Assembly (NCBI GenBank): GCA_026003175.1
Contig: BPGT01000002.1
Location: forward strand, 868,001-932,000
DNA: 64,000 nucleotides
Direction: 5' to 3'
Source of the DNA: Armatimonadota bacterium
GTDB lineage: Bacteria > Armatimonadota > HRBIN16
This document shows positions 5,554-23,226 of this stretch, piece by piece; position 1 is the stretch's first letter, and each line of letters starts with the position of its first letter. Made by a program: the position numbers and the translations under genes. A model generated the notes under the pieces. The model made no database searches. It worked only from the letters and a program-made list of their open reading frames with translations, and was not told the DNA's origin.

Positions 5554-5569
5554 TGGTACGAATCTTGCA
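5554..5569 (+). promoter_or_regulatory. Sigma-54 (RpoN) promoter, TGGTACG-N4-TTGCA
   Basis: TGGTACGAATCTTGCA has GG and GC at the spacing of -24/-12 promoters, and the known consensus is TGGCACG-N4-TTGCW. The predicted start is near 5580, about 53 bases before the PEP-CTERM gene. A 24-base core around it is identical but for one base to the site at 23211. Confidence 0.8.
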
Positions 5570-5632
5570 GTATATAAATAGCGGAGAGATTCGGTACGCA
5601 ACCCCCTGTGTGGGATGAAAGGAGGTATCGCT

Positions 5633-6193
5633 GTGTCATTCAGCATCTATCGCCGGATAGGGCTGGTTCTTGGCTTGAGTCTGTTGCTGGTTCCTGCGGC
5701 GTACAGCTACACCCTGCTCAACTCTATCGTCTGGTCCGGGAACGGACACCTGTACCAGGTTTACGGAGGCTCTTCCTCCTGGCAGGACGCGGCAACCTTT
5801 GCCAGCACGGTTAGTGTGCCGGGCTTTTACAACGGCTACCTGGCAACCGTGCACAGTGCAGACGAGAATGCAGTTATTACCAGCTTGCTTACCCTCCCTG
5901 CGTGGTTGGGTGGCTTCCAGCCAGAGAATGAGACCGACCCAAATGCCAACTGGCAGTGGGTAACAGGTGAATCGTGGACTTACACCAACTGGTACCCTGG
6001 GCAGCCCAACGATAATCTGGGACCGGGTAGCGAGCAGTTTTTGGTCATCTACACGAACGGCATGTGGCACGACTACCCAAACGGCACTCGCCCCAGCTTC
6101 GTCGTGGAGCTGAACCCTGTGCCCGACCCGGCGAGCATCGTGGGACTGGGAGTCGGGTTGACAGGACTGTTCCTGCGCCGCCGGAAGCGCTGA
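5633..6193 (+). CDS. PEP-CTERM-anchored protein with C-type lectin-like domain
   Basis: This is an exported surface protein of about 186 residues. Its signal peptide runs IYRRIGLVLGLSLLLVPAAYS. The body (about residues 25-160) has the C-type lectin pattern: HLYQVYGGSSSWQDA, YLATVHSADENA, WLGGFQPE, WQWVTGESWTYTNWYPGQPND and WHDY. The C-terminus is a PEP-CTERM sorting signal: VPDPAS, a hydrophobic helix, then LRRRKR. In known systems exosortase cuts such tails. I chose GTG at 5633 because AAAGGAGGT (5617-5625) sits eight bases upstream; the earlier ATG at 5615 would overlap that site. Transcription is predicted from a sigma-54 promoter, consistent with the PrsK/PrsR-linked control reported for PEP-CTERM systems. 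No exosortase is in the window. The ligand is unknown. Confidence 0.88.
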   Translation: MSFSIYRRIGLVLGLSLLLVPAAYSYTLLNSIVWSGNGHLYQVYGGSSSWQDAATFASTVSVPGFYNGYLATVHSADENAVITSLLTLPAWLGGFQPENETDPNANWQWVTGESWTYTNWYPGQPNDNLGPGSEQFLVIYTNGMWHDYPNGTRPSFVVELNPVPDPASIVGLGVGLTGLFLRRRKR

Positions 6194-6277
6194 TAAGAGT
6201 GATAGTCAAGACTTGAGAGGTGCTCTGGTAGCAGTGTAACGACTGTCCTACCAGGGGAGGGGTGTTGTTGTTTCCAG

Positions 6278-6303
6278 AACCGGCAGATGAGCTTCTGCCG
6301 GTT
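6278..6303 (+). terminator. Perfect 10-bp hairpin downstream of the PEP-CTERM gene
   Basis: AACCGGCAGA (6278-6287) pairs with TCTGCCGGTT (6294-6303) around loop TGAGCT, followed only by TTC. It is probably the terminator of the lectin gene, but the T-run is weak. Confidence 0.5.
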
Positions 6304-6308
6304 TCACT

Positions 6309-7349
6309 ATGTACAGGAGGTTCACTTCGACAGCAGGATTCTCCATACCGTACCCGAACTTTCCTCCAGAGAAAGTTTTCTGTGGGAGAGACATCGTGTC
6401 GCAGGTATGGTTACCGTTTGCGAAGCGTCACCTGTGGGGATTTACACAGGGCATCCAGATTGCCATCGCACCGGATGAAGTGGAAGAAGGAGGACGTTCC
6501 CCACGCGGGCTGTTTCGCATCGGCTACCCTATTCTGGATAACGGCAAAAAAACGGGGCTGGTAAACTTCATTGCAGTAGAACCCACCGTGCGCGGGCAAA
6601 GAGGCTTTAGTGAACTGGAATGGAGCCAGACCGACCAGCAACAGGGTAAGAGGTTCTGGTGTTTAAGGGGTGACGAACCGGTATCTGAGCCACAACCCGG
6701 CGAGCGGTACAAACAGGGCAGAGTAGAGTACCTGAGGGTGCGCTTTCTGGTGGAACGATTCGAAAACGGCGCGGAGGTGACCGTCACAGCGACCTTCCGC
6801 AGCGACCGCCCAGACGAAGTGTGCCTAGTTGCCGAGCCTACCTCCAATAGCGCACCTCTTGACCAGTGCGTGCTTACCGCCACAATGGGCAATTACATCC
6901 GCGCACGGCAGCTCTGGCTCAGAGACGCCATGGTACACAGCCGCGAGCTATTCAGCGACTACCGGGGTGAGCATTTCGCCCCAGATACCTGCTTCCCTCT
7001 GGAACGCCTCCCGCGCAACCATGCGGGTGATATTGTAGTGTGCCTTACCACTGACGAAGCGGACCCCGGCAAAGAGCCTGCGGACCCGCGCGCTCCGTGG
7101 TGGCGATATCGTGGCTCTTTTCCCGTTACCCAGTACTGGCGTAAACCGAAGGGCACATGGAACCAGGACCTGCAAGTACGCGTGAACGCCCGCAGGGTGT
7201 ATTGGGCAAGCAAGGTGGAGATTCCGCACGGTATCGCCTACGAGAATTTTGACCTTGTCGAGCGGTTTCATAGCAATAGCCCGTTCTGTTTCGGCGTCAC
7301 CCGCAAGCCACCCGGCTCTCTCGCGATCCTGAGTTACCGGGCACGGTGA
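6309..7349 (+). CDS. Hypothetical protein, 346 residues
   Basis: I do not recognise it. The open frame from ATG 6309 has no signal peptide or membrane helix. Composition is that of a soluble beta-rich protein, with many Trp, Tyr and Arg and segments such as FRIGYPILDNGKKTGLVNFIAVEP and LRVRFLVERFENGAEVTVTATF. The start is doubtful: AGGAGG lies just after the ATG with no suitable start codon behind it, and the 6278-6303 hairpin comes right before. It sits alone between a PEP-CTERM gene and a TetR regulator on the same strand. The stretch 7350-7575 downstream has no gene; it holds a short palindrome around CGGTTAAATTGAACCG (near 7439-7454), a possible TetR operator. Confidence 0.6.
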   Translation: MYRRFTSTAGFSIPYPNFPPEKVFCGRDIVSQVWLPFAKRHLWGFTQGIQIAIAPDEVEEGGRSPRGLFRIGYPILDNGKKTGLVNFIAVEPTVRGQRGFSELEWSQTDQQQGKRFWCLRGDEPVSEPQPGERYKQGRVEYLRVRFLVERFENGAEVTVTATFRSDRPDEVCLVAEPTSNSAPLDQCVLTATMGNYIRARQLWLRDAMVHSRELFSDYRGEHFAPDTCFPLERLPRNHAGDIVVCLTTDEADPGKEPADPRAPWWRYRGSFPVTQYWRKPKGTWNQDLQVRVNARRVYWASKVEIPHGIAYENFDLVERFHSNSPFCFGVTRKPPGSLAILSYRAR

Positions 7350-7575
7350 ACACGTCGCCCGGCGGAAGCCTTTGCCCTGTCGCGAGAGTGATGATTCCCG
7401 CTCTCGTCTGACGAAGAGGCAGGATTACAGATACCCGACGGTTAAATTGAACCGGTGGATTCCGCCACAGGAATGAAGGCACTCCATGCAGCAAATCAAA
7501 CCTGCTGGATGAGAAAAACGGACGCAAAGTCGCTTCAGTGAATGTTGTGCAACCGGAAACTTTCGGAGGGAAAAC

Positions 7576-8181
7576 ATGCAAGAACCGCAAGTACCCAGTA
7601 AACGAGCAACCGCGCGTGACCGTATCATGCGAGCAGCAGAAGCGCTTTTTGCCGAACGAGGCTTTGAAGCCACCTCTATTGGCGAGATTGCCCTGCGTGC
7701 CCATGTGAATCGCGCGTTGCTGTACTACTACTTCGAGCACAAGGAAGACCTGTACCACCAGCTGCTGCAGGAAGGGGTAGAGAAGCTGCGTGCCACAGTA
7801 CTCGCCGCTGTCAACACAACCGGCTCCGCACGAGAGGCAATCCGCACCTTCCTGCAGGGATACCTGCAAATCGCCCATCATAACCCGGGGCTGGTGCGCA
7901 TCGTCTATCGTGAAATCGTCGGCGCGCAACGAGGCGATCAGGAAAGCCAGTCGCTGGTGCGCCAGTTCATGCAGACCATCGCCCAGATGGAGCAGGTGAT
8001 ACAAAGAGGTGTGCACAGCGGCGAACTGATACCTCACGATACCGGCAAAAGCGTGTATTTGCTACTGGGAATGGTGAACGTATTCGTCACGCTAACCTAC
8101 CTTGAGCAGGTGTCCTATCCAACGGATGAGATAGTGGAACATATTATGCACGTGTTCTTTGAAGGGCTAGGGAAAAGGTAA
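7576..8181 (+). CDS. TetR/AcrR-family transcriptional regulator
   Basis: This is a 201-residue repressor-type protein. The TetR helix-turn-helix lies at residues 14-60: RIMRAAEALFAERGFEATSI, then IALRAHVNRALLYYYFEHKEDLY. The C-terminal helical ligand domain is diverged, as usual. The start ATG at 7576 has CGGAGGG seven bases upstream. It converges with the four-GAF protein gene with only seven bases between stops and no terminator visible. A CGGTT/AACCG palindrome upstream could be its own site. Ligand and targets are unknown. Confidence 0.88.
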   Translation: MQEPQVPSKRATARDRIMRAAEALFAERGFEATSIGEIALRAHVNRALLYYYFEHKEDLYHQLLQEGVEKLRATVLAAVNTTGSAREAIRTFLQGYLQIAHHNPGLVRIVYREIVGAQRGDQESQSLVRQFMQTIAQMEQVIQRGVHSGELIPHDTGKSVYLLLGMVNVFVTLTYLEQVSYPTDEIVEHIMHVFFEGLGKR

Positions 8182-8188
8182 CCAGCTC

Positions 8189-10171
8189 TCACGTTTCTAG
8201 CACCAGTTCCGCCACGGTGCTGAGCAGTTCGGCATCGTGGCGGGTGAACTTACGGGGTTGCAAGGTATAGACCGCCAGCAGGCTGGTGGGCTTCTTCCCA
8301 CCGAGTGGGACTGCCAGACATGATGCCATTCCCTCGCGCTGAACAAAGGGGTCATCTCGGAAACGCACGTCGGACGACGCCTGATATACCAGCAGGGGGC
8401 GTCCTGTTTTTACCACCCATGCCATGCTGGAGGTTTCCTCCTCATCCAGCAGCGTCGCCATCCGGGAACCGCTTACCGCCATGGGTTTAATCCGATGCCC
8501 CTCTACCGCGTAGTATATCGCTCTATCCGCACGTAACACCTCTGCGGCGATGTTGGCGATAAGCTGCGGAACCTCTCCCTGCTTGACCGTACTGCCGATA
8601 GCCCGCGCTACCCGCAGGAAATACTGACGCAGGTCCTCCGACTTTTGCCGCTCCTCTTCGTAGCGCAGGGCGTTGTCGATAGCCACCGCCGCCTGATTGG
8701 CGATAGTATACAACAGCTCCATTTCCGCAATCGTAAATAGTCGCCGTCGGCTGCTCATTGCCAGTATTACGCCCATCGGCTCCATGCCCACCTGTAGCGG
8801 CACGCACGCCAGAGAGACCACCCCCTCGCGGTCCAGCGGAACCGCCGCGTTGCGTGGGTCAGCGGAAACATCCAGCACATAAACCGGGCTCTGAAACTCT
8901 AACACCCATCCGGGAATGCCCTGTCCCCTGGTAGGGCGCAGCCGATCAAAATACGCGGGGTCTACACCACGGCTGACGTGCGTGCGCAGCACACCTTCAT
9001 TGCTGTCGTAGAGCATCAGCGCAAACTTATCCACCTGCAACAACCGCAGCACGCTGTCCGCCACCAGGTCCAGCACACTCTGCAGCTCCAGTGAGGAGTT
9101 CACCGACTGTGAGAGCTCGTAAATAGAGGTCGCCTCTTCTGCGCGTCGGTGGGCATCTTCATAAAGCAGAGCGTTCTCGATGGCGATGCCTGCCTGTGAT
9201 GCCACACCGTTCAGTAGTTTCAGGTCTGCCTCCGTATAGGCGTTACGACTGGTGCTGGTGACCAAAAGCAAGCCAAGCGTTTTCGTGCGCGACTTCACCG
9301 GCGCATACAGAGCAGAGTGTATTCGCAGGCGCGGCACAAACTGTTCGACGCCGGGGTCCAGGTCGGCAGCGTTCACCAGGCGAGGCTCGCCGCTGCGCAA
9401 GACCTCTGCCTGCAAACCTTCGTCTGCCGCCAGCATCACCTCGCGCTCTTCTCCTTCCAGCCCGCGCTCCGCGGCAATAAACAGGTGCGTGCGTTCATCG
9501 GTTAACAGGAAAAGCGCGGCGAAGGCATGAGGCAGATGCGCAGCTACCTCGTCCACTACCGTGTCCAGCACCTGATTAAGGTTGAGGCTACTGCCGATAC
9601 TCTGGGCGGCATGGTACATCACGTCCAGCTCGCGTCGCAGCCGGTCGTTGCGCTGCTCCAGTTGCCGGCGTCGCCACAAGCTGGCGATATGTGAAGCCAG
9701 TATCTGCAAAGTGCGAACGTCGGAAGAGTCGAAGCGGGAGCCATCGCGTTTGTTCAGCACAGCCAGTGCACCCAGCATTTGCTGATCACACTGTATCGGC
9801 ACCACAGCAGCACCGCGCAGCCGCGTTCCACCTAGCAGGCTCTCCATCACCGGGTCTGGATGCACCGGATAAAAGGGGATAGCGTTTTCGCCGCGGCGTA
9901 CGGTGTTCTCCATCAGCGAGTTCTCCACGCGAAACACCGTACCGCGCAGGTCCTGCACCTCTTCTCCGGCTACTGCCGCCAATCGCAGCTTGGTCTCGCT
10001 TTCCGTCAGAAACGCTACGGCACTCGCGCTCGCGTCGGTCAGCAGGCAGGCTTCCTCTGCAATACGGCGCAGAGCTTCTTCCAGCGGCAAGGGGTCCACG
10101 GCGATCTGCGCTGCCCGGTGAAGCCCGGCAATCTGCTGTTCAATAGAAACGATGCTCCCTGCATCCATCAT
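8189..10171 (-). CDS. Four-GAF-domain protein without an output domain
   Basis: The 660-residue soluble protein is made almost wholly of GAF small-molecule sensor domains, at about 25-165, 195-340, 360-500 and 520-655. Each ends in the typical helix, for example LNGVASQAGIAIENALLYEDAHRRAEE or LYTIANQAAVAIDNALRYEEE. Short coiled-coil linkers separate them. Most family relatives carry a histidine kinase, GGDEF or PP2C domain after such an array, but this one stops 20 residues after the fourth GAF at LSTVAELVLET. No lesion is seen near the stop. It may act by binding a partner. The likely start is one of the two ATGs at 10171 and 10168. It is convergent with a TetR gene. Confidence 0.85.
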   Translation of the reverse strand: MMDAGSIVSIEQQIAGLHRAAQIAVDPLPLEEALRRIAEEACLLTDASASAVAFLTESETKLRLAAVAGEEVQDLRGTVFRVENSLMENTVRRGENAIPFYPVHPDPVMESLLGGTRLRGAAVVPIQCDQQMLGALAVLNKRDGSRFDSSDVRTLQILASHIASLWRRRQLEQRNDRLRRELDVMYHAAQSIGSSLNLNQVLDTVVDEVAAHLPHAFAALFLLTDERTHLFIAAERGLEGEEREVMLAADEGLQAEVLRSGEPRLVNAADLDPGVEQFVPRLRIHSALYAPVKSRTKTLGLLLVTSTSRNAYTEADLKLLNGVASQAGIAIENALLYEDAHRRAEEATSIYELSQSVNSSLELQSVLDLVADSVLRLLQVDKFALMLYDSNEGVLRTHVSRGVDPAYFDRLRPTRGQGIPGWVLEFQSPVYVLDVSADPRNAAVPLDREGVVSLACVPLQVGMEPMGVILAMSSRRRLFTIAEMELLYTIANQAAVAIDNALRYEEERQKSEDLRQYFLRVARAIGSTVKQGEVPQLIANIAAEVLRADRAIYYAVEGHRIKPMAVSGSRMATLLDEEETSSMAWVVKTGRPLLVYQASSDVRFRDDPFVQREGMASCLAVPLGGKKPTSLLAVYTLQPRKFTRHDAELLSTVAELVLET

Positions 10172-10371
10172 AACGCCCCTGTTCTCTGGGCAAACATTTT
10201 AACTGCACCATTATTGTTACTACATCTGTCGGTCTTTGTCAAGCAAAACCGGATCGTTACCACACTTCGTCGCCGCCGACCTCTTTCCTGCGGCAAGCAG
10301 GAATGGGCACTTTTTGTGGTAAAATATTAGTCAATCAAAGTGCGACATCCCGATGGTGAGGAGGGAATATC

Positions 10372-12351
10372 ATGAGCGACGGCATCGCAGAAGCAACCAG
10401 AGCACAGGCGGCAATCGAAGCCCTGTTGCGAGAGAATCGTACTTTCCCACCTTCCGAATCGTTCCGCGCGCAGGCGAACGTGAACGACCCACAGATATAC
10501 GAAACTGCTGCGAAAGACCCGGAAGCATTCTGGGCAGGTTTTGCCAGCGAACTGGAGTGGTTCGAACCCTGGCACAGGGTGTTAGAATGGAATCCGCCCC
10601 GTGCGCAATGGTTCGTCGGCGGGAAACTGAACGCCTCGGTGAACTGTATAGACAGACACCTGCGCACAGCCCGACGCAACAAAGCAGCTATCATCTGGGA
10701 GGGCGAGCCCGGCGAAGAGCGAGTGCTTACTTACTGGGACCTGTACCGCGAGGTGACCAAATTTGCCAATGTGCTAAAACGGCTTGGTGTACATCGCGGC
10801 GACCGGGTAGTTATCTATATGCCGATGGTGCCCGAAGCAGCGATAGCCATGCTTGCCTGCGCGCGTATTGGCGCGCCGCACTCGGTGGTATTTGGTGGCT
10901 TCTCGTCTGAAGCGCTGCGCGAACGCATCAACGACTGCGGCGCGAAGCTGGTCATCACCGCAGACGGAGGCTATCGACGCGGCAACATCGTGCAGCTGAA
11001 GCGCGCTACCGATGAAGCGGTAGAGCACTGCCCAACCGTACAACACGTTATCGTGCTCAACCGTGCGATGGACCCCACACACGTGCCCATGCTGGAGGGG
11101 CGCGACCACTGGTGGCACCGCCTGATGGAACACGCTCCTATGCACTGCGAGCCGGAAGCAATGGATTCGGAAGACCTGCTGTACATCCTGTACACCTCCG
11201 GCTCCACCGGCAAGCCCAAGGGCATTGCCCACACCACAGGCGGTTATCTCACGGGCGTTTATGCCACGACCAAATGGGTGTTCGACCTCAAAGAGGATGA
11301 TGTGTTCTGGTGCACCGCCGATATCGGTTGGGTTACCGGACACTCGTACGTGGTGTATGGTCCTCTTGCCAACGGCGCAACGGTGCTCATGTACGAAGGC
11401 GCACCAGACTACCCCGACCGCGACCGCTTCTGGGCGTTGGTCGAAAAATATCGGGTAACGATATTCTACACTGCGCCCACCGCCATCCGCGCCTTCATGA
11501 AGTGGGGACCGCAATACCCTCAACGACATGACCTTTCCAGCCTGCGCCTGCTGGGCAGCGTGGGAGAACCTATTAACCCTGAGGCGTGGATGTGGTATCA
11601 CGTATACATTGGCGGGCAGCGATGTCCCATCGTGGATACCTGGTGGCAGACCGAGACAGGGCATATCCTCATTACCCCGTTGCCCGGCATCACCACTACC
11701 AAGCCCGGCTCCGCCACGCGACCCTTCCCCGGTATCGAAGCGGATGTATTCAACGAGCAGGGCGAGTCGGTACCGCTGGGCGCAGGAGGCTATCTGGTTA
11801 TCAAAAAGCCCTGGCCCGGTATGTTGCGCACTATCTACGGCGACCCCGAGCGCTACGTACAGCAGTACTGGAGTCGCTTCCCCGGCATCTATTTCACCGG
11901 CGACGGCTGTAAACGCGATGAAGAGGGATACTACTGGCTGCTGGGGCGTGTCGATGACGTGATGAACGTGGCAGGACACCGCATCAGCACGATGGAAGTG
12001 GAATCCGCTCTCGTAGACCATCCAGCGGTCGCTGAGGCGGCGGTCATTGGCAAGTCGCATGAAATCAAGGGGCAGGCGATAGCTGCCTTCGTCACGCTGA
12101 AAGAAGGGCATCGCCCAAGCAGCGAAATGGTAGACGAGCTGAAAGAGCACGTGGTACAAAAGATTGGTCCCATCGCTCGCCCTGACGACATCCTCTTCAC
12201 AGCGGAACTGCCCAAGACCCGCTCCGGTAAAATCATGCGTCGCCTGCTACGCGACATCGCCGAAGGGCGCGCCCTGGGCGATACGACCACGCTGGCAGAC
12301 CCATCGGTCGTTGCCGCCCTGCGCCAGCAGTACGAGGAAAGCGAGACATAA
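10372..12351 (+). CDS. acsA: Acetyl-CoA synthetase (AMP-forming)
   Basis: It converts acetate, ATP and CoA to acetyl-CoA in the cytoplasm by way of acetyl-AMP. The length of 659 residues is normal. The adenylate-forming core motif [11 protein letters not shown] lies near 277, WWQTETGH near 425 and the hinge [23 protein letters not shown] near 505-530. The C-terminal [11 protein letters not shown] carries the Lys that is acetylated in the known regulation of Acs. The N-terminal [21 protein letters not shown] is typical of acetyl-specific members. ATG at 10372 has GAGGAGGG eight bases upstream. It stands alone and converges with the repeat protein gene at 12441 across a strong palindrome. Confidence 0.95.
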
Positions 12352-12390
12352 AGCCGATTGCGCGGTGGCAACCGGCTGTATTCACCTCTT

Positions 12391-12420
12391 GCTCCCCCTT
12401 CCCGCCAGGGAAGGGGGAGC
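12391..12420. terminator. Perfect 13-bp palindrome between convergent genes
   Basis: GCTCCCCCTTCCC (12391-12403) pairs with GGGAAGGGGGAGC (12408-12420) around GCCA. It lies between the stops of acsA and the 12441 gene and could end both transcripts, although no T-run follows. The core CCCCCTTCCC/GGGAAGGGGG recurs inside the MITEs at 47231 and 48158, so it may be a degenerate member of that repeat class. Confidence 0.5.
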
Positions 12421-12440
12421 ACATCATCCAGAGGGGCTCG

Positions 12441-14359: not shown

Positions 14360-14423
14360 ATAAATCGCCGATAGCCGATGGATAAACGAGGTTTCATCTG
14401 AACCGATGAGAACAGACCTCAGC

Positions 14424-14510: not shown

Positions 14511-14549
14511 CCTGCTGATGGTTTGGTTCATTGGGGGACTGGTTCGCAC

Positions 14550-15920
14550 GTGGGGAAAAAAAGCACACTGAGATGGTTGTTCTGGCTTATATGGATCGCG
14601 GGTGGTTTGTACTTCGCCGATAAAGGTGCAAGCTACTATCGCGAGGCACGCGCTTTGCCCCGCTCGGTGATAGAAACTATCCCCGAGATGTCTCCTCATC
14701 GCGCGGGGGACCGCGTGCTGGTATTCGCCCCACATCCCGACGATGAAGCAATTGGTTGTGCCGGGATGATTCAACAAGCCGTAGCGGCGGGGGCACAAGT
14801 GTGGGTCGTGTACATGACCAACGGCGACGGCTTCCGGCTTGCTGTAGAGCAGCAGTACCGGTTACCGAAGCCCACCCCAGAACAACACATCCAGTTCGGG
14901 GAACTGCGCCAGCAGGAAGCGCGCCACGCCATGCGCTTACTGGGGCTGGCAGACTGGCGTACTATCTTTCTGGGCTATTCCGACAGAGGGCTCTATCTGC
15001 TCTGGAGTTCGAACTGGACGGTCTCCAACGCTTTGCGCTCCTATTACACTGGCACCGACTCGAACCCATACCGCGATACCCTCCGTCCGGGCGCGACTTA
15101 TTGCGGACAAAACGTGTTGCGCGACGTAGAGACCGTGCTGCGCCGCACTGTACCCACCCACGTGTACGTCACGCACCCTGCCGATGACCACTCCGACCAC
15201 GCGGCAACCGCCCTCTTTGTACAAACAGCACTGGCTCGCTTGCGTGAACAGGGTATCGGCTTTGCGCGCAGCGTAGTGCTAAGGCACTATTTGGTACACT
15301 GCGGAGACTGGCCTCAGCCGCAGGGAATGCACCCTGACGAACCACTTACTCCTCCTGTAGCTTTCCTCAATATTGGGCTGCACTGGAAACGGCTGACCTT
15401 GACCTCCCAGCAGCAAGCCACCAAGCTGAAAGCAATACAGGCTCATGCTTCTCAGATGCGGATGATGTCGCGCTTCTTGCAAAGCTTTGTGCGCGAGAAT
15501 GAGCTGTTTATCGAACAACCGGTAGCGTTGCAACTCGCTCCGGTGCAAGGCATTGTCTGGGAAGAGCCTGATGAGGAAGACTTGCTGCGTGAACTACAGG
15601 CACCCGGCGACTTCAGCTGGGGAAGACTGTACCTAGAGCATGGACGCCTGATAGTGCACCTGAGCACCCGGGGCAAACCGCGAACCGGCTTTACCTATAG
15701 CTGCACTGCACACGTATTGCTGCCAAATGACAATATTACCACTGTTACCCTGCGGGCAAAAGTGGGAAAGCACAACGCCTCGGCACAAGTGGACGAAGAC
15801 GGAGTCACCTTCCGGTTTCCTTCCTTCCCTAGCGGCTCTGTAGTCACGTTACACGCCCAATCACGCTTTGCGGGGTTGCCGGTGGACAAAAGCATCGGGC
15901 GTGTGGTGCGCCTGCCATGA
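14550..15920 (+). CDS. PIG-L family deacetylase, membrane-anchored
   Basis: This is a zinc-dependent N-acetylglucosamine-type deacetylase with about 456 residues. An N-terminal signal anchor reads TLRWLFWLIWIAGGLYFA. The catalytic domain (about 50-290) has the metal site VFAPHPDDEAIGC near residue 55 and the second His motif THPADDHSDHAA. A beta-rich C-terminal extension (about 340-456) is of unknown role. I prefer GTG at 14550, just before the basic residues of the anchor, with GGGGGA upstream; a TTG at 14523 is also open. It follows tRNA-Ser closely. The known family works on GlcNAc-PI, mycothiol and bacillithiol precursors or antibiotics. Here the substrate is unknown, and the exported topology suggests a glycan. 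Confidence 0.85.
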   Translation: MGKKSTLRWLFWLIWIAGGLYFADKGASYYREARALPRSVIETIPEMSPHRAGDRVLVFAPHPDDEAIGCAGMIQQAVAAGAQVWVVYMTNGDGFRLAVEQQYRLPKPTPEQHIQFGELRQQEARHAMRLLGLADWRTIFLGYSDRGLYLLWSSNWTVSNALRSYYTGTDSNPYRDTLRPGATYCGQNVLRDVETVLRRTVPTHVYVTHPADDHSDHAATALFVQTALARLREQGIGFARSVVLRHYLVHCGDWPQPQGMHPDEPLTPPVAFLNIGLHWKRLTLTSQQQATKLKAIQAHASQMRMMSRFLQSFVRENELFIEQPVALQLAPVQGIVWEEPDEEDLLRELQAPGDFSWGRLYLEHGRLIVHLSTRGKPRTGFTYSCTAHVLLPNDNITTVTLRAKVGKHNASAQVDEDGVTFRFPSFPSGSVVTLHAQSRFAGLPVDKSIGRVVRLP

Positions 15921-15930
15921 AACGATAAAA

Positions 15931-15955
15931 AGGCGCCGGTGGTCAGCCGGCGCCT
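15931..15955 (-). terminator. Intrinsic terminator of the 16001-16684 gene
   Basis: On the minus strand AGGCGCCGG/CCGGCGCCT (9 bp, loop of 7) is followed directly by TTTTTATCG. It lies 46 bases after the pseudopilin stop. Confidence 0.85.
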
Positions 15956-16000
15956 CGCGGGAGGAGAGGAGGAGGATGGTGCTAGGCGTTAAGCTGGTTG

Positions 16001-16684
16001 TTATGGCGTCTGCAGCGGGTTGAACTGGCTTGCCTTCCACGGGCTCTGCACCGCCAGCCTTATCCACCGCACGTGACCATCTGCAAACACGATGTTGTTT
16101 CCATCGTTGTGGCGAGGACGCTGCCACTGCGCTCGCTCACGGTACGACGACTCCCAGTTCGGGTGTCGCTCGGCAAGCTGGCCGGGCATCACGAACATCA
16201 TGTAACTGCCCATCGCACCGTTCAGATTGTTCACATTTGCTTGATTGTTAGGCGTGTCATACGCCAGAAATGTGTTGCTAGGTATTGTTATTGCGTCCAG
16301 AGCCAATCCACTGTATCCGTAAGCCGTGCCCATCAGGCGAGGAAACCCCAGAAACGTATTGTAAGCATAGCTGGGCACCGGCGTCGTGTTCTCAGGGCAT
16401 ACCCAGATTCGCGCATCTCTCACATACGGCTGCAGCGCTATCATCCATGCTCGTCCTGCCGGGGCGAGCGCTGTGTAGGGCATTGCTGCCGGCAGGTTGC
16501 CTTCCCAATCCTGTGCATACATAGCGAACGCCTGCCCAATCTGGCGCAGGTTGCTCACGCATGCCGTGCTGCGCGCTGCTGCACGAGCACGCCCAAACAC
16601 CGGCATCAGGACGGACGACAGTATCGCCACCACGGCGATAACCACCAGCAGTTCGACTAACGTAAAGCCTTTTCGCGTTCTCAT
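16001..16684 (-). CDS. Prepilin-type H-X9-DG protein (pseudopilin-like), sigma-54 promoter
   Basis: The protein has 227 residues. The class III leader MRTRKG precedes the helix FTLVELLVVIAVVAILSSVL, then MPVFGRARAAARSTACVSNLRQIG. Near the C-terminus RHNDGNNIVFADGHV gives an exact H-X9-DG motif. ATG at 16684 has AAGGAG nine bases upstream; the frame is open further up but has no better start. It is transcribed alone and ends in a good terminator (15931-15955). A sigma-54 promoter lies upstream at 16769-16784, a control shared with the two PEP-CTERM genes here. It is more diverged from the other four pseudopilins than they are from each other (SSVL and GRARAAARST). Role is not established. Confidence 0.88.
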   Translation of the reverse strand: MRTRKGFTLVELLVVIAVVAILSSVLMPVFGRARAAARSTACVSNLRQIGQAFAMYAQDWEGNLPAAMPYTALAPAGRAWMIALQPYVRDARIWVCPENTTPVPSYAYNTFLGFPRLMGTAYGYSGLALDAITIPSNTFLAYDTPNNQANVNNLNGAMGSYMMFVMPGQLAERHPNWESSYRERAQWQRPRHNDGNNIVFADGHVRWIRLAVQSPWKASQFNPLQTP

Positions 16685-16768
16685 GACACTCACTCCTTGA
16701 AGATAGTTTTTTCGCTCTGCCGGACACCGTCTCTTGCGGTGCCTCTTTTGCCTTGCACCCATATTAGT

Positions 16769-16784
16769 TGCAAAAAGCGTACCA
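16769..16784 (-). promoter_or_regulatory. Sigma-54 (RpoN) promoter, TGGTACG-N4-TTGCA
   Basis: On the minus strand TGGTACGCTTTTTGCA matches the -24/-12 pattern with the same 16-base length as the sites at 5554 and 23211. The predicted start is near 16758, a 74-base leader to the pseudopilin ATG. Confidence 0.75.
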
Positions 16785-16870
16785 ATGTCGTGATAAAATT
16801 ACCGGTTTTTGCCTCAAAAAGCGGGAAATTCTCCAGCTGATACTGAAGAAAATACAAGGGGGAGAGTAAG

Positions 16871-18133
16871 ATGCCGCGTGTGATCATAGAGGAAACTATT
16901 GCTACTTGCGAGCCACCCAACAACGGTTCGGGTCCGCTGTGGTGCTGGGGTGCACCACTTCTGATACGGGCAGGCGACGAAGTGTACGCCAGCGTCATGG
17001 AAACCGGCGCAGGTGTACCACCGTTGTGCAACACCCGCCCTCGCCTCTACCGCAAGCGGAGACACGATGGCTGGCAGATGGTATGGGCGCCGCCCGCCTT
17101 TCGAGAGCGTGAACCGTGTCCTCTGGTAACTTTACCGCAGGGCAAATTGTTCCTCTCCGTGAATGCCTCCGTGATGCCTCCGGGCACTCAATACGGCAAG
17201 TGCGAGCCACGTTTACTGGAGTTCTCGCGAAGCGTACTTTCTGAACCGAGAGACCATATCCCACCTTTCCCCCAAACCGCCACTTTCACCGATCACTCCT
17301 ATCGCGGCATCGCTGCCGATAGTCAGCGCGGTGAGATATTGCTGCTGCATATCGACGCTCGCACCAGCGAATACCACTACGCTTTGCTAAAAAGCGACGG
17401 ACAATGGGATGCGCCGGGCATCCTCTCCTTCCCCATCCGCGCCTGCTACCCGCAGGTAGCTCTGCGCAACCGAGCGGCGTACGTGCTTGCTATTGGCGAC
17501 ATTGTAGAGCCGGTCGAAGAGTGGCGACGATACAAACGTGAGAGGACACAGCGCGAATGGGACTATGTCTTCCGCAGGCTGTTCTTCACCTGGACGCCAA
17601 ACGTGCTCTCTGAGCCGTTCTGTTCGCCGATAGAGGTAGACAATGTGGATGCTACCGGTGGACATATCATCAACTTAGACCTCTGGCTGGATAGTCGAGG
17701 TATCGCTCATCTGCTGTATCTGCGCCAGCAGACCACCTCACTCCTGCGCGACAAGTACTTCCCCAACCTGCCCCTGCGTGCCACGCTACAGCACTGCACG
17801 GTGAAGGAAGGACATATTGTGCTGAGGCAAACACTGATGGAAGGTGGTGAGGGAGTGAACGCCCCGTACCCCCTCTACGCCCGCCTTCACTCGCCCGACG
17901 GCGAACAACTACTGGCAGTGTACGCGGCGTCCCGTGCCGACGGAACGCGGTTTAACGCGCTCTTTCCGCTACTGCCCCAACGTGGGGAATCGCAAACCAT
18001 CCCCCTACGCGAGCCGTTTAGCGTCTTCTTTACTGCGTGTGAGCGCGGAGGTAGCAAACCCTCGCGCACTGTGGACCTGTTCGGCATCGCGCAGGAACCA
18101 ACGGTTCTACGCTACGCGTGCGTACAGCTATGA
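16871..18133 (+). CDS. Hypothetical protein, probable beta-propeller (BNR/sialidase-like fold)
   Basis: I do not recognise a named family. The protein has 420 residues and no signal peptide. Repeated beta-strand blocks alternate with polar turns (LVTLPQGKLFLSVNASV, YRGIAADSQRGEILLLHIDA, HIINLDLWLDSRGIAHLLYL, LYARLHSPDGEQLLAVYAAS), the look of a six- or seven-bladed propeller. It stands next to, and convergent with, a clear sialidase-like gene; the stops are one base apart. ATG at 16871 has AAGGGGGAGAG upstream. A role in sugar or glycan handling is a guess from the neighbour. Confidence 0.65.
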   Translation: MPRVIIEETIATCEPPNNGSGPLWCWGAPLLIRAGDEVYASVMETGAGVPPLCNTRPRLYRKRRHDGWQMVWAPPAFREREPCPLVTLPQGKLFLSVNASVMPPGTQYGKCEPRLLEFSRSVLSEPRDHIPPFPQTATFTDHSYRGIAADSQRGEILLLHIDARTSEYHYALLKSDGQWDAPGILSFPIRACYPQVALRNRAAYVLAIGDIVEPVEEWRRYKRERTQREWDYVFRRLFFTWTPNVLSEPFCSPIEVDNVDATGGHIINLDLWLDSRGIAHLLYLRQQTTSLLRDKYFPNLPLRATLQHCTVKEGHIVLRQTLMEGGEGVNAPYPLYARLHSPDGEQLLAVYAASRADGTRFNALFPLLPQRGESQTIPLREPFSVFFTACERGGSKPSRTVDLFGIAQEPTVLRYACVQL

Positions 18134-18134
18134 A

Positions 18135-19223
18135 TCACCGGCGGAGGATGTCTTTCTCCTCGAACACCGCGTGGTAAATGACAGTGCGCTCCCTTGCGCT
18201 GAACACCAGATGGATTTTGCCGTCGTCAGTTTGGATCGCGCTCGGGTAGGCAAAGGCGTCCTCGCCCTCAAACAGATTGAAGCGGTACGGATAGCTCTTA
18301 TCGTCATCCGTCGAAACCGCAACGGTGAGCGGGGTACGCTCCGAGGTGGAATCGTTGTAAATCAGCAGCAGATGTCCGTTGCGCAGGCGCAGAAACTCCA
18401 CTGACGCATTGGGGTTTTTGAATTCGGTCTCTTTGCCTTCGCTCCAAGTACGCCCGCCGTCGCGCGACTCCGCCCTGACGATGCGCCTGTCGGGGGTGTC
18501 CTCGTAGCTGCCTCCTGCCCGGCAGTAACACACCAGATAGTCACCCGACAGAGCCACCACCGCCGGCTGCAGGTTCCCCAGCCGCGAGCGGATGCGATTC
18601 GTCTCCGTCCATGTGTGTTTTTGGGCATCGTAGATAAAGAACAGCGAACAGGTCTCCGGCGAGACAAACTCAGGGTCTTCCCCTACTTCATAGTAAGCAG
18701 GCAGCAGGATATCGCCGTTGGGCAGGGCAAGAGGGTGATTGCGCACCATCATACCCTGGGTCAGGCTTACTATCATCGGGTCGGACCAGGTTTTTGCGCC
18801 ATCGGTAGAGATTTTCGCCTGAATGATAGATTTGCTCCATGTTGCTCCATAGCGCACCACGTAAAATAGCCACACCTTGCCGTCGGGCGCCTGCCAGACA
18901 ACGGGGTTGCCCTCTGGACGGTTAGGCGCGTCGGCAATGGCAACCGGTGTTGTCCACTCCTTACTGCCTTTGGGCAGACGTGCACCATAGATGGCGGTAT
19001 CTTCGGCATACTCATCCGAGCCTGCGTAGAACACCAAATACAGGTCGCCATTGGATAGCTGTGTGATGGAAGGAGCATGCTTGTATCGTCCACCCGGATG
19101 CTCGGGACCGAACACGCGCTGCACGGGGACGTTGGCTTTCATCGTCGTTGGTGCCTCCTGTGCGCTTGTCCATAAAGACAACAAGAAGACTGCACCCATC
19201 ACCCACCCCATAGAAAAAGACAT
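18135..19223 (-). CDS. Exported sialidase-like (BNR repeat) glycosidase
   Basis: The 362-residue exported protein has a signal peptide (GWVMGAVFLLSLWTSAQ). Asp-box (BNR) motifs S-x-D-x-G-x-T-W appear as STDGAKTWS near 143 and SRDGGRTWS near 255, with a weaker one at STDDDKSY. PSITQLSNGDLYLVFYAGS and NHPLALPNGDILLPAYYE are typical of six-bladed sialidase propellers. The family cleaves sialic acid or related sugars, but many environmental members have unknown glycan targets. Arg residues that could form the catalytic triad are present, but I cannot assign them surely. The next gene on the strand (upstream, 19304-20341) is a sugar isomerase-like protein, consistent with carbohydrate use. Confidence 0.82.
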   Translation of the reverse strand: MSFSMGWVMGAVFLLSLWTSAQEAPTTMKANVPVQRVFGPEHPGGRYKHAPSITQLSNGDLYLVFYAGSDEYAEDTAIYGARLPKGSKEWTTPVAIADAPNRPEGNPVVWQAPDGKVWLFYVVRYGATWSKSIIQAKISTDGAKTWSDPMIVSLTQGMMVRNHPLALPNGDILLPAYYEVGEDPEFVSPETCSLFFIYDAQKHTWTETNRIRSRLGNLQPAVVALSGDYLVCYCRAGGSYEDTPDRRIVRAESRDGGRTWSEGKETEFKNPNASVEFLRLRNGHLLLIYNDSTSERTPLTVAVSTDDDKSYPYRFNLFEGEDAFAYPSAIQTDDGKIHLVFSARERTVIYHAVFEEKDILRR

Positions 19224-19254
19224 GTCGGTTCCTCCGTCTACTCCCCTACCCCAA

Positions 19255-19281
19255 TGCCCCTCCCCCGGTGGGAGAGGGGCA
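19255..19281. repeat. Palindromic GC-rich intergenic repeat
   Basis: TGCCCCTC and GAGGGGCA arms with an imperfect CCCC/GGGA extension form a hairpin between the sugar isomerase-like gene and the sialidase-like gene. The same sort of CCCCTC/GAGGGG boilerplate occurs in the MITEs and at 30730-30750 in shorter form. Confidence 0.45.
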
Positions 19282-19303
19282 AGGAGAGAGGATCACTGTT
19301 GCG

Positions 19304-20341
<1,038 letters not shown>

Positions 20342-20484
20342 AGCGAATCCCTCCTTCAGCAAGGTTTTCACCCATTGATTCGCCTTGGGATGCCACCTTC
20401 CTGCTTACGTCTCCCTGCGTTACGACAACGTGATGGGTCTTCATACGAGCCTGCACTACAGACTCTGCGAAAGCGGGAAAGCAT

Positions 20485-20850
20485 TCACGCCGACTGCAGT
20501 GAGAACCACTTTGCCTCACGCTCGATATGCTGCGCGAAATATCCTTCTCGAAGCATCTTTTCCCATTCGGCTTGCGTATATACCAGCAGGTCAGTGGAAA
20601 GAGGCAGGTCAGAGGTGTCAAAATGACGTGCGCGCTCGATGAAGGGGATGGTCGTGTCACGCATGATGATCACGAGGTCAATATCACTGCCCACACCCCA
20701 GTCGCCGCGCGCGTAGGAGCCAAACAGCCCGATGCGTACCACCTCTGGATGCTTAGCGAAAACGCACTCAGCCCACATTCTCACCGCCTCAAGAACGCTC
20801 TCGGCATCGATCCATTTCAGCACGGGCGAACTCAAGGATCTCACGGGCAT
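20485..20850 (-). CDS. Minimal nucleotidyltransferase (MNT) domain protein
   Basis: The roughly 121-residue protein has the pol-beta-type nucleotidyltransferase signature FGSYARGDWGVGSDIDLVI, with the two catalytic Asp residues in SDID and a third acidic residue expected later (STDLLVY). It pairs with the HEPN gene just upstream, overlapping it by 62 bases from the preferred ATG at 20850; GTG at 20823 would also serve. MNT/HEPN pairs of the HI0073/HI0074 type are widespread, and some act as toxin-antitoxin modules in which the MNT part adenylylates the HEPN partner. Here the pair sits between a TIM-barrel gene and SdpI/NamZ genes. Confidence 0.85.
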   Translation of the reverse strand: MPVRSLSSPVLKWIDAESVLEAVRMWAECVFAKHPEVVRIGLFGSYARGDWGVGSDIDLVIIMRDTTIPFIERARHFDTSDLPLSTDLLVYTQAEWEKMLREGYFAQHIEREAKWFSLQSA

Positions 20851-21193
20851 AGCGTATCGCCTCTTCGCTTTGTCTTCGGGTGTAATACTCGTAGGGCGCA
20901 CCTTCCGCGAACCCATTGGGATAGCGTGGCGGGATGTAGTAGGCGTCCAGTACGCCAGCAATCTCTTCCAGTTCGCGCGGCACCTCTATCTGTTCGGGCA
21001 GCTGTTGCAGTAGTTTTAGCACAGAATGTCCCCATGCATCCTGTCCCAGCTGCAGGTGCAACGCCTTGACCGCTTTCTCCGCAGCCTGCTGTGCCGCGAA
21101 ACATGCCCACTCGTGCACCTCGTTCTGCAAGCTAATCTGCGCCTGATACAGGTCGCGCTCTGCCTGACGCAACCAGTCCTCTGCACGGTTCAT
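20789..21193 (-). CDS. HEPN domain protein, partner of the MNT
   Basis: This 134-residue all-helical protein belongs to the HEPN superfamily: DWLRQAERDLYQAQISLQ, WACFAAQQAAEKAVKALHL, GHSVLKLLQQLP, YIPPRYPNGFAEGAPYEYY and then a final helix AIRYAREILEFARAEM. The RX4-6H motif of HEPN ribonucleases is not present in the last helix, which has no His. It therefore resembles the HI0074-like binding class more than active RNase toxins. It is the upstream gene of the pair and overlaps the MNT gene. Confidence 0.87.
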   Translation of the reverse strand: MNRAEDWLRQAERDLYQAQISLQNEVHEWACFAAQQAAEKAVKALHLQLGQDAWGHSVLKLLQQLPEQIEVPRELEEIAGVLDAYYIPPRYPNGFAEGAPYEYYTRRQSEEAIRYAREILEFARAEMDRCRERS

Positions 21194-21241
21194 CCCACTC
21201 GCCTCCTGCTCTCATTATAACATGAGCACAAGCCGACTATA

Positions 21242-21886
21242 TCATGCCCCCTTCTCCACCTGTTTATACAGCACCAGCGAGTAAACCACCGGCACGAACA
21301 CCAGCACCATGAACACTACGAAGCAAATCGCAGGAGGCGCGCCCAACCAGACCGCCACGGCACCCAGCACGCCAGTTACGAAGTACAGCCGTGCCGAAAG
21401 CTGGTGCGTTCTATCCCATACGGTTTCGCTGGCGAGCGTCCACGGCGTGCGCACACCTACCCAGAAGTTGCGCTTCACCCGATTGAGCAGCACCCCGATG
21501 CTACCGAACAGCAGGAAGATACCGCCAATCAACGCCCGGGACACGTCCAGACGGGGATGCAATGCTGCCTGCAGGGTAACAACGTGAATGTACGCCATCA
21601 ACGCAAGCACTAACACCACGATGAGGTTATAGGTAGAGCGGAAAGGTTCCACCTGAAAACCTTTGGGCGACAGCCAGGGCAAAGCCAGAAAGAGCAGAAA
21701 CAGCCCCGCCGACATGCTGGGCACGAAGAAGGAACCGAATGACCTGCTGCTCCACCCGTCTACCTCGCCCTTCCAGTTCCAGTGTGTGGGTATCCTCTCC
21801 GGCAGAGATGGATAGAACCACAGTGAGTACGCCAGCATAGCTCCCACAAGCAACACGCTGCAGAGAATCATGGTGCGAGTTCTCAT
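21242..21886 (-). CDS. SdpI/DUF1648-family membrane protein
   Basis: The 214-residue protein has six hydrophobic segments. The N-terminal DUF1648 region contains YPSLPERIPTHWNWKGEVDGWSSR, in which a helix is followed by the conserved IPTHWN(x)xGxVDxW. The C-terminal part with VKRNFWVGVRTPWTLASETVWDRTHQLSARL is the SdpI signature. In Bacillus SdpI gives immunity to the SdpC toxin and signals to a repressor; most homologues are uncharacterised. ATG at 21886 has GGAGGT seven bases upstream; a GTG three codons earlier overlaps that site. It follows the NamZ-like gene on the same strand by 57 bases. Confidence 0.87.
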   Translation of the reverse strand: MRTRTMILCSVLLVGAMLAYSLWFYPSLPERIPTHWNWKGEVDGWSSRSFGSFFVPSMSAGLFLLFLALPWLSPKGFQVEPFRSTYNLIVVLVLALMAYIHVVTLQAALHPRLDVSRALIGGIFLLFGSIGVLLNRVKRNFWVGVRTPWTLASETVWDRTHQLSARLYFVTGVLGAVAVWLGAPPAICFVVFMVLVFVPVVYSLVLYKQVEKGA

Positions 21887-21943
21887 GGTAAACACCTCCA
21901 GATAAAAAGACCCCCACAGTGATCTTTGGGTTGCACCTGCTCC

Positions 21944-23077
21944 CTACTCGTAAAGCAAATACCTCCCCCTCTTGCGTCGGAAGGACGACGCCTGGCGTTG
22001 CATGTACTCCCACACCTCATCCGCATCACCGCCGCGCACAATCATCTCATACGCCTTGCCGTCGGTCAGCAAGGTCATCAGTCGCTCGTATTCCCACTCG
22101 CGCGGGTGCAGACGCCGCAGGGCGCAGGCAAGCTCCACCCCCAAACGCACCGGCTGGAACCGCTTGCGGTCTACCACCGTAAAGCGCAAACCGTGACATG
22201 TTTCGCCGGCGAACCTACTGGTGCTGGGCGTAAACTGCAGAGGCATACAGGCGAAGCCTGGTAGGCGGCGCTTCAGCAGATGCTGAGCCAGCGCATCGGC
22301 ATTTAGCCAGGGCGCACCGAACAGTTCGAAGGGGGCATCGGTTCCTCTTCCCACCGATACATTGGTAAACTCCAGCATCCCCACGCCCGGATACAGCGTT
22401 GCTGCCGTCAGACTACGCATATTCGGAGAAGGGTTCACCCAGCGCAAGCCCGTCTGGTCATACCACATTTCGCGCTTCCAGCCCGAACAGGGTATCACCT
22501 GCAGGTCGCATCTCGGCGCGCGCTCTGCCTGAAACAGCCTCGCTAATTCGCCCACCGTCATGCCGTGCCGCAGTGGGATGGAGTGATACGCCACAAACGA
22601 ACGCTTATCGGCGTCGGTCAAGCTCCCTTCCACCGCTACCCCATTGATGGGATTCACCCTGTCCAGTACCACCATGTGCACGCTGTGCCGCGCTGCCGCT
22701 TCCATCGCCAGTCCCAAGGTGGAGATATACGTGTAAAACCGGCAGCCGATGTCCTGAATATCGAACACCAGTGCGTCCACCCCGCGCAACATCTCTCCGG
22801 TGGGCGACTTGTGTTCCCCATACAGGCTGTAAATCGGTAGTCCTGTTTCAGGATGGCGCGCGTCCTTCACCGGCTCGTCCACAATGCCTGCGAAGCCATG
22901 CTCCGGGCTGAACAGCGCGGTCACCTTCACGCCCGCGTCCAGCAGCACGCGCCATGTTGGTTTACCCTCGCGCGTCATGCCGGTATGGTTAGTAATCACC
23001 CCTACTCGCATTCCTTTTAGGGGCTGACATCCCTGTTGCAGCAGTACGTCGATACCGTTTTGAACCTGTGTAGACAT
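21944..23077 (-). CDS. DUF1343 protein, probable exo-beta-N-acetylmuramidase (NamZ-like)
   Basis: The 377-residue protein matches the DUF1343 family throughout: VGVITNHTGMTREG, LFSPEHGFAG, IYSLYGEHKSPT, LVFDIQDIGCRFYTYISTL, VVLDRVNPINGVAVEG and NPSPNMRSLTAATLYPGVGMLE. Characterised members (NamZ of Bacillus) release N-acetylmuramic acid from the non-reducing end of peptidoglycan fragments. I see no signal peptide, so this copy may work inside the cell. A 15-bp palindrome lies 38 bases before the start and may be a regulator site. The SdpI-like gene follows. Confidence 0.87.
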   Translation of the reverse strand: MSTQVQNGIDVLLQQGCQPLKGMRVGVITNHTGMTREGKPTWRVLLDAGVKVTALFSPEHGFAGIVDEPVKDARHPETGLPIYSLYGEHKSPTGEMLRGVDALVFDIQDIGCRFYTYISTLGLAMEAAARHSVHMVVLDRVNPINGVAVEGSLTDADKRSFVAYHSIPLRHGMTVGELARLFQAERAPRCDLQVIPCSGWKREMWYDQTGLRWVNPSPNMRSLTAATLYPGVGMLEFTNVSVGRGTDAPFELFGAPWLNADALAQHLLKRRLPGFACMPLQFTPSTSRFAGETCHGLRFTVVDRKRFQPVRLGVELACALRRLHPREWEYERLMTLLTDGKAYEMIVRGGDADEVWEYMQRQASSFRRKRGRYLLYE

Positions 23078-23114
23078 GGCTAACCTCTTACCAGTAGTCT
23101 GTCAAACGTGTCTT

Positions 23115-23129
23115 TGGTTATCATAACCA
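23115..23129. promoter_or_regulatory. 15-bp palindrome upstream of the NamZ-like gene
   Basis: TGGTTATCATAACCA is a perfect inverted repeat (7-1-7), 38 bases upstream of the NamZ-like start codon and 82 bases before the divergent sigma-54 site. The form is typical of GntR/LacI-type operators. Regulator unknown. Confidence 0.4.
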
Positions 23130-23132
23130 CAC

Positions 23133-23157
23133 GGAGGGCGAGGCTCCGCCCGAGCCG
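23133..23157. repeat. 25-bp intergenic repeat, copy 1
   Basis: It begins GGAGGGCGAGGCTCC and ends GAGCCG, and is itself partly palindromic (GGCTC/GAGCC). The second copy is at 60693-60717, differing by a CCGCCCG/CCCGCCG rearrangement. Confidence 0.6.
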
Positions 23158-23210
23158 GTTATGAGAAACTTCCAAATTTTTTCGCCCCAAAACCCTCTAA
23201 CCCCTGTTTG

Positions 23211-23226
23211 TGGTACGATTCTTGCA
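23211..23226 (+). promoter_or_regulatory. Sigma-54 (RpoN) promoter, TGGTACG-N4-TTGCA
   Basis: TGGTACGATTCTTGCA has the -24 GG and -12 GC at correct spacing. The predicted start is near 23237, about 49 bases before the PEP-CTERM ATG. The flanks GTTTG and GTA are shared with the site at 5554. Confidence 0.82.

Follow-up and report, generated by a model that had tools for sequence, protein, structure and literature searches.

The question raised by this locus is whether three matching sigma-54-type (-24/-12) sites, two of them before PEP-CTERM or PEP-CTERM-like genes and one before a lone H-X9-DG pseudopilin gene, belong to one regulon, and what a pseudopilin would be doing in it. The window analysed was the whole 64,000-nt stretch of an Armatimonadota bacterium of the genus HRBIN16 (GCA_026003175.1, contig BPGT01000002.1, positions 868,001 to 932,000; G000:C2:868001-932000 in our labels), a genus which we take to be of hot-spring origin. 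G000 denotes the genome of the window (4.107 Mb, 7 contigs, 97.5% complete), the genus set comprises ten genomes including G000, L-numbers are the loci read, and C stands for contig. Judged from the sequences, the three sites are probably (about 0.7) promoters of a single sigma-54 regulon of about 24 units under one activator, in which a candidate small RNA, R26, would restrain the targets that match it at their Shine-Dalgarno regions.

Sigma-54 sites, their regulon and the activator

The motif TGGTACG-N4-TTGCA was found three times in the window, against 0.01 expected, and none of 100 shuffles reached three. The matches lay at 5554-5569 (+), 16784-16769 (-) and 23211-23226 (+), the places given by the first-pass annotation, and the window held no fourth one. 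With one mismatch permitted, the relaxed form TGGYACG-N4-TTGCW gave 6 matches in the window versus 1.84 expected. Direct comparison also bore out the earlier statement that the sites at 5554 and 23211 share 23 of 24 bases. The distance to the start codon had been given as 49-74 bases; likely starts with a Shine-Dalgarno sequence were measured 61, 65 and 86 bases downstream of the -12 GC, which is close, the value varying with the start chosen. The sites and the genes behind them were as follows.

5554..5569, + strand: sigma-54 (-24/-12) site TGGTACGAATCTTGCA with the full extended consensus, AAAAACCCCGTTTG upstream and GTATATA downstream
5633..6193, + strand: gene for a PEP-CTERM protein with the tail VPDPASIVGLGVGLTGLFLRRRKR (TIGR02595 21.8 bits, cut-off 16)
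16001..16684, - strand: apparently single-gene H-X9-DG pseudopilin of 227 aa (TIGR02532 31.8 bits, cut-off 16.3; TIGR04294 24.2 bits, cut-off 19)
16769..16784, - strand: sigma-54 site TGGTACGCTTTTTGCA of the pseudopilin gene, core invariant in 7 orthologs, flanks departing from the regulon consensus
23211..23226, + strand: sigma-54 site TGGTACGATTCTTGCA (leave-one-out position weight matrix (PWM) score 40.5; training site of model R1)
23286..24071, + strand: gene for a PEP-CTERM-like protein with the tail IPDASTVTLFVAGLLPAAMLLRRRKV (IPDAST...RRRK; best model NF038126, 20.4 bits, cut-off 50)

Two PEP-CTERM genes had been proposed. The gene at 5633-6193 exceeded the TIGR02595 cut-off, but that at 23286-24071 was PEP-CTERM-like and absent from the TIGR02595 match list. 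The former has another in-frame ATG upstream at 5615 and possesses orthologs with the site at L197, L220 and L247, while its G002 ortholog (L217) was without an exact site; the latter has an ortholog with the site at L198. Site 5554 had a leave-one-out PWM score of 55.8; model R1, for whose training it had been used, gave it an E value of 2.6e-11. Furthermore, two sites at C2:865425 and C2:864231 lie 2.6 and 3.8 kb to the left of the window, and with the window sites they bring the number of sigma-54 sites clustered within 27 kb to five. The cluster was syntenic in G004, and the matching G002 contig held three exact sites.

The whole-genome search proposed with the first-pass annotation supported sigma-54 promoters: TGGYACG-N4-TTGCW gave 30 matches in the genome versus 3 for the reversed pattern. 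The motif exceeded the reversed control in all ten genus genomes, from 25 versus 2 (G003) to 6 versus 3 (G007). The 30 matches were sorted by what follows them, by eye unless a family search is named, and about 24 were placed as promoters should be. Nine precede PEP-CTERM or PEP-CTERM-like genes (L004, L007, L013, L016, L017, which is truncated, L018, L020, L021 and L025), and a further seven lie before genes for secreted proteins of YD-repeat, dockerin-like or subtilase type (L001, L005, L006, L012, L014, L022 and L027, with family searches covering L014 and L027 only). One match each was found before the exosortase operon (L024), a Wza-like export gene heading the second-exosortase cluster (L015; TIGR03027 150.4 bits, cut-off 180), the gene of a REC-PilZ protein (L003), a cold-shock-like protein (L002) and the pseudopilin (L019). 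Three had no downstream open reading frame (ORF) (L011, L023 and L026), and the other six (L008, L009, L010, L028, L029 and L030) appear to be chance matches, all of them inside long open frames.

The extended consensus was AAAAACCCCGTTTG-TGGTACGATTCTTGCA-nTATATA, most regulon sites possessing an unusually long conserved flank. With a profile search, a GGGTACG variant came to light before a PEP-CTERM gene, as did two more sites ahead of ORFs of dockerin-like and YD-repeat-like type; one weak match lay within a gene. The PWM excluded the six long-frame matches and, when applied to gene families, also L001, L012 and L019; model R1 was built without L001, L019 and the same six. The predicted enrichment at PEP-CTERM genes was found, with a site at 5 of the 30 TIGR02595 matches (one of them the GGGTACG variant) and at 5 PEP-CTERM-like genes outside those 30. 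Moreover, the exosortase that had been expected in the genome was present twice, on contigs C4 and C2; one exosortase lies about 110 nt behind a sigma-54 site, and the other in the cluster headed by the Wza-like gene with its site.

Exactly one rpoN was present in the genome, as the first reading presupposed. Sigma54_activat (PF00158) gave three matches, one strong (254.8 bits) and two others of 31.1 and 30.5 bits. The strong match was:

L099 3128-4321: sole strong sigma-54 activator, REC, AAA+ and lid, 397 aa

For this protein, Pfam gave REC, AAA+ and lid models only, and no helix-turn-helix or Fis DNA-binding domain. Only 38 nt separate its stop codon from the next sigma-54 site, the predicted promoter of the REC-PilZ gene, and therefore no room is left for a Fis domain. 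The C-terminal end was likewise free of a helix-turn-helix in G002 and G004, the two others examined. The activator thus has the type Ic architecture, REC-AAA+ without a helix-turn-helix. The tandem gene before it encodes an 881-aa kinase with two GAF stretches, PAS, HisKA and HATPase.

The first-pass annotation had pointed to PrsK/PrsR, and a canonical PrsK/PrsR system transferred from Proteobacteria would account for the tandem kinase and activator genes and for the 412.7 bits of the activator with the PrsR model TIGR02915. However, this score was under the equivalog cut-off of 502.6, AtoC and NtrC models scored higher, and the Fis domain was absent. The kinase reached 109.9 bits with the PrsK model TIGR02916 (cut-off 300), which was tested on the activator-adjacent kinase only. 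In addition, TTTACA, the end of the 17-nt Motif 1 of that system, was found in 3 of 18 upstream regions versus 1.6 in shuffles, no clear excess. Such a transfer is considered very improbable, and PrsK/PrsR in the strict sense was not borne out; the kinase/activator pair appears to work like PrsK/PrsR and fails membership by its cut-offs and domains. The 18 upstream regions were those left from the 24 sites after six near-duplicates had been removed beforehand. The 7-mer AAAATTT occurred in 8 of them, where the shuffle maxima had a mean of 4.8 and a highest value of 6, a weak excess.

From these sequences we infer that the GAF/PAS histidine kinase would phosphorylate the REC-AAA+ activator, which, having no DNA-binding domain, would act from solution on RNA polymerase-sigma-54 waiting at the -24/-12 sites. 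Transcription would then yield the exosortase and exopolysaccharide (EPS) operons, a subset of the PEP-CTERM proteins, the REC-PilZ regulator and one H-X9-DG pseudopilin. It would also yield large secreted YD-repeat/dockerin-like proteins and three candidate small RNAs.

The C-terminal domain of many regulon products is dockerin-like (DLDGDxEVTLFDFGxLVxNFG; L109 8211-12491, L214, L216, L226, L231, L242 and L245), and the dockerin-like proteins are a second client class beside the PEP-CTERM proteins. In two of the YD-repeat/dockerin-like loci (L106 4930-4937 and L107 4107-4115), a long C tract close to the likely start puts that start out of frame with the long ORF; these tracts are either phase-variable or an assembly error. 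AT-rich dyads or A/T tracts were also seen about 25-50 bases upstream of the -24 box at many other regulon promoters, besides the following one before site 5554, which the weak evidence available marks as a candidate bend or factor site.

5505..5525, no strand: AT-rich dyad GAAAAATTCCATAAATTTTTC

The pseudopilin and its site

The window pseudopilin was 91% identical to one in Bacterium HR16 (isolate HRbin16). TIGR04294 found 33 H-X9-DG genes in the genome, of which 30 were read and 3 had no locus. Among the 30 read, the window gene alone carried a site, with an upstream PWM score of 15.4, the best of the remaining genes scoring -2.2. Enrichment of the H-X9-DG family for the motif, as had been predicted, was therefore not found (1 of the 30 read). 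Orthologs of the window gene were present in 8 of the ten genus genomes, its own counted, and 7 of the 8 carried the site, with 84-90 nt between the -12 GC and the start codon. In the seven orthologs, all 10 defining bases of the site were invariant, compared with 48 of 123 other upstream positions (Fisher p 1.5e-4). Three of the six Y, W and N positions varied, and Y and W vary as sigma-54 sites allow.

The regulon might nevertheless be real and the pseudopilin site a chance core, its conservation coming from another element shared with the divergent gene at 16871. Several points weigh against counting this site as a promoter of the regulon. It had the lowest leave-one-out PWM score of the 24 sites (14.8), with negative flanks (-5.5), and it was absent from the list of model R1, for which only 150 of 1102 first-look candidates had been scored. 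In G008, the ortholog (80% identity) carried neither the site nor the complement of R26 described below, on a contig that begins 222 nt upstream. Six of the 30 genome matches, those in long open frames, seem to be due to chance; moreover, the divergent gene shares the region in the orthologs, where other blocks are conserved too. The view that the site is a chance match, held after the PWM scores, was abandoned because its core is conserved in the orthologs. The exosortase site likewise had negative flanks (-4.4), no sigma-70-like promoter was found in 16650-16900, and the pseudopilin gene carries an independent complement of R26. A chance core at the pseudopilin is thus judged unlikely. With the site in 7 of 8 orthologs, the proposal that the pseudopilin lies in the sigma-54 regulon has gained support, and the first-pass annotation was probably right in regarding a lone pseudopilin as an unusual member.

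A second pseudopilin-like gene was seen at 2305-3135 of the window, right behind a LacI-type regulator (both by eye) and without a sigma-54 site.

R26 and its predicted targets

The sites at L011, L023 and L026 were each followed by a conserved stretch closing with a hairpin and a T run. The candidate RNA behind the last of them, and its match at the pseudopilin gene, were as follows.

about C5:44496-44633 (L026 1527-1664), + strand: R26, candidate sigma-54-dependent small RNA with a site and a terminator-like hairpin
16685..16698, - strand: ribosome-binding site of the pseudopilin, AAGGAGTGAGTGTC, a 14-nt perfect complement of R26

R26 was found in 9 of the ten genus genomes at E 3.5e-26 or better, eight of these being the training sequences of the model and G005 being independent. 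The 36-nt block TTTCCGTTCAGACACTCACTCCTTCATTCCTGCGTT was invariant in the eight R26 sequences, which represent eight species, while the middle was scrambled and unalignable. The invariant 12-mer core was CACUCACUCCUU, and the consensus fold left exactly CACUCACUCCUU unpaired between two helices. The G005 core had one base changed, compatible with a G-U pair.

Among 414 gene starts, the longest exact complements of R26 were 14 nt at both the pseudopilin and the exosortase, followed by 13 nt at the exosortase-operon kinase, whereas the longest matches of the reversed, sense and complement controls were 10-11 nt. Ranking by unrestricted duplex energy was uninformative (pseudopilin rank 56 of 414), and exact matches and core duplexes were used instead. 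By core duplex among 413 starts, the PEP-CTERM gene L090 came first, the pseudopilin second, the kinase third, a GalT-like gene fifth and the exosortase tenth. The energies of the first three were -29.7, -26.0 and -24.8, compared with -21.4 for the best of the reversed core. The GalT-like gene is presumably galactose-1-phosphate uridylyltransferase; its start (L060; L282) was complementary to the core in this genome and in G004.

Both gene-start sets were drawn mostly from regulon, pseudopilin and PEP-CTERM loci, and because of this bias the core complement AAGGAGTGAGTG was searched in the ten whole genomes. It occurred at 30 places versus 2 for the control: 8 in R26 itself, 7 at the exosortase-operon kinase, 5 at the pseudopilin, 5 at one PEP-CTERM family and 5 elsewhere, the GalT-like gene being among the last. 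Thus, 17 of the 22 non-self places across the genus fell at three gene families. In this genome (4.1 Mb), AAGGAGTGAGTG was found in R26, at the pseudopilin, at the kinase and at a place before a 10-aa ORF, so that two of the three non-self places were the ribosome-binding sites of the pseudopilin and the exosortase-operon kinase. The PEP-CTERM family so counted was that of L087, which in this genome has a 1-base change; its members have a common upstream block, TTGCTGTCTAA. The G003 and G009 pseudopilins differed by one base in the R26 complement, the G-U pair being kept.

R26 might instead be a generic anti-Shine-Dalgarno or sponge RNA with no specific targets, because its core holds CUCCUU, complementary to any AAGGAG, and part of the complement is a generic Shine-Dalgarno sequence. 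Such an RNA would hardly be expected to give the few whole-genome places of the extended 12-mer or their concentration in three families. In addition, a 16S-like control tail put other genes on top, with a best energy of -23.2. A generic role is accordingly rated as improbable.

Several other results count against the proposed targeting, as does the bias of the gene-start sets. The start of L089, outside the known regulon, had a 12-nt match to R26, and the reversed-core control also ranked the kinase third. The exosortase ranked only tenth by core duplex, and its G004 ribosome-binding site, AAGGGGTGGAGTG, pairs less well; exosortase ribosome-binding sites were obtained at 5 of 7 loci, none coming from G006 and G008. 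L090 and the L087 family were complementary at their ribosome-binding sites without a clear sigma-54 site, and therefore the target set of R26 is not simply the regulon. G009 gave no match to R26. The consensus fold showed compensatory changes in 0 of 26 pairs, with a covariation term of +0.57. Single-sequence folds left 7-12 of the 12 core bases unpaired, and the mean unpaired probability of the core ranged from 0.57, in this genome, to 0.92.

The two other candidate RNAs behind sigma-54 sites were the following.

C1:1522606 (site), L011 1527-1637, + strand: R11, short RNA behind a sigma-54 site, 6 species
C3:335166 (site), L023 1527-1730, + strand: R23, structured RNA, length about 200 nt, flanked by an alaS-like gene (by eye) and a ferritin/VIT1 gene

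In R23, compared over 5 species, 8 pairs had changed on both sides. The terminator loop of R11 keeps UCCCCCC in G000, G001, G002, G004, G006 and G009; C-rich pairing loops are known in other small RNAs. For R11 and R23, nothing above controls was found among the gene starts read. Rfam 15 gave 0 matches at E <= 1 in L101 6100-6500, L011, L023, L026, L200 and L230, all three candidate RNAs thus included. Hfq was present in the genome (PF17209, 100.7 bits, cut-off 27). Beyond the genus, R26 had four weak matches in 141 other genomes under stricter filters (E 2.8e-4 to 7.3e-3), three of them just 37-39 nt long.

All three might instead be leaders, attenuators or coding transcripts of neighbouring genes and not trans-acting. 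A 67-aa ORF with conserved synteny lies about 300 nt after R26, and in the genome of the window one reading frame of R26 stays open for 73 aa. However, a terminator-like hairpin separates R26 from that ORF (3 such hairpins versus 0.7 expected in shuffles), the R26 frames are broken between the eight orthologs, and the middle is unalignable where the core is invariant. R11 and R23 each face a convergent gene. A cis-acting or coding origin is therefore held to be unlikely, and trans-acting R26 is the reading preferred here.

As a trans-acting RNA, R26 would use CACUCACUCCUU to pair with Shine-Dalgarno regions: those of the pseudopilin and the exosortase-operon kinase, less strongly that of the exosortase, and also those of some PEP-CTERM genes outside the sigma-54 set. 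We infer the direction of control to be translational restraint because Shine-Dalgarno occlusion would act so, as in CJnc230 of Campylobacter jejuni. R26 would then limit the translation of its targets while the regulon is on, an incoherent feed-forward loop. It is a tentative proposal that such a loop exists and that this pseudopilin, 1 of 33 paralogs, is dedicated to the exosortase/EPS pathway, its dose being set jointly with that of the exosortase operon through a shared promoter type and R26. The earlier suggestion that pseudopilins and exosortase-sorted proteins are made together at the surface may hold in this form, in agreement with the R26 matches to the pseudopilin and exosortase-operon ribosome-binding sites. 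A role of the pseudopilin in the secretion or surface anchoring of exosortase clients is our guess.

Comparison with known systems

To our knowledge, the function of the large H-X9-DG pseudopilin paralog family is believed to be unknown. The window gene gains a functional neighbourhood on two independent kinds of evidence; its dedication to the exosortase/EPS pathway, if true, would be a first system-level clue to the role of an H-X9-DG pseudopilin. Two independent control layers, the sigma-54 promoter and R26, seem to tie it to the exosortase operon.

The PrsK/PrsR system of Proteobacteria has a -24/-12 site before its PEP-CTERM genes, as here (PMC1569441; Aquincola pepA, PMC9850573). Both possess a tandem kinase/activator pair and a link to EPS, and the mean motif-to-start distance of 71 nt in PrsK/PrsR PEP-CTERM genes was close to the window distances (PMC1569441). 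Unlike PrsK/PrsR, the present system is in another phylum, its activator has no Fis domain and is under the family cut-off, there is no clear TTTACA excess, and the regulon adds a pseudopilin, YD-repeat/dockerin-like proteins and candidate RNAs. In the set of PEP-CTERM species treated by Haft 2006, the motif was common to Proteobacteria only (PMC1569441). Sigma-54 control of PEP-CTERM genes would thus be extended to another phylum, beyond the Proteobacteria of the 2006 survey, and in a simpler circuit, in which a single sigma-54 and a single strong activator, itself free of a DNA-binding domain, would serve about 24 promoters that are legible from sequence.

CtcC of Chlamydia and FlgR of Helicobacter are each the only sigma-54 activator known in those organisms. 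Like the activator described here, these type Ic proteins have no DNA-binding domain (PMC7482065, PMC3162934). They differ from it in serving the chlamydial developmental cycle or flagella, while the present activator is tied to exosortase, EPS and PEP-CTERM genes.

Among the titles and abstract openings listed from the open-licence literature, no small RNA tied to exosortase or PEP-CTERM was found, nor a sigma-54 small RNA system in Armatimonadetes, nor an anti-Shine-Dalgarno/sigma-54/EPS system. We know of no earlier small RNA tied to exosortase, and the proposed action of R26 on the exosortase operon comes with exact bases available for mutation. The Qrr RNAs of Vibrio act in trans under LuxO and sigma-54. 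They are like the system proposed here in combining a two-component activator, sigma-54 and trans-acting small RNAs, and differ in targets and sequence; a further difference is the lack of a DNA-binding domain in the present activator. CJnc230 (FlmE) of Campylobacter jejuni, an RpoN-linked small RNA, represses its targets at the ribosome-binding site (PMC11187230). A 12-nt single-stranded stretch between its two stem-loops holds an anti-Shine-Dalgarno sequence, a layout that R26 would share by its consensus fold. CJnc230 is processed from the flgE mRNA, whereas a sigma-54 site of its own precedes R26, whose matches include exosortase-related genes.

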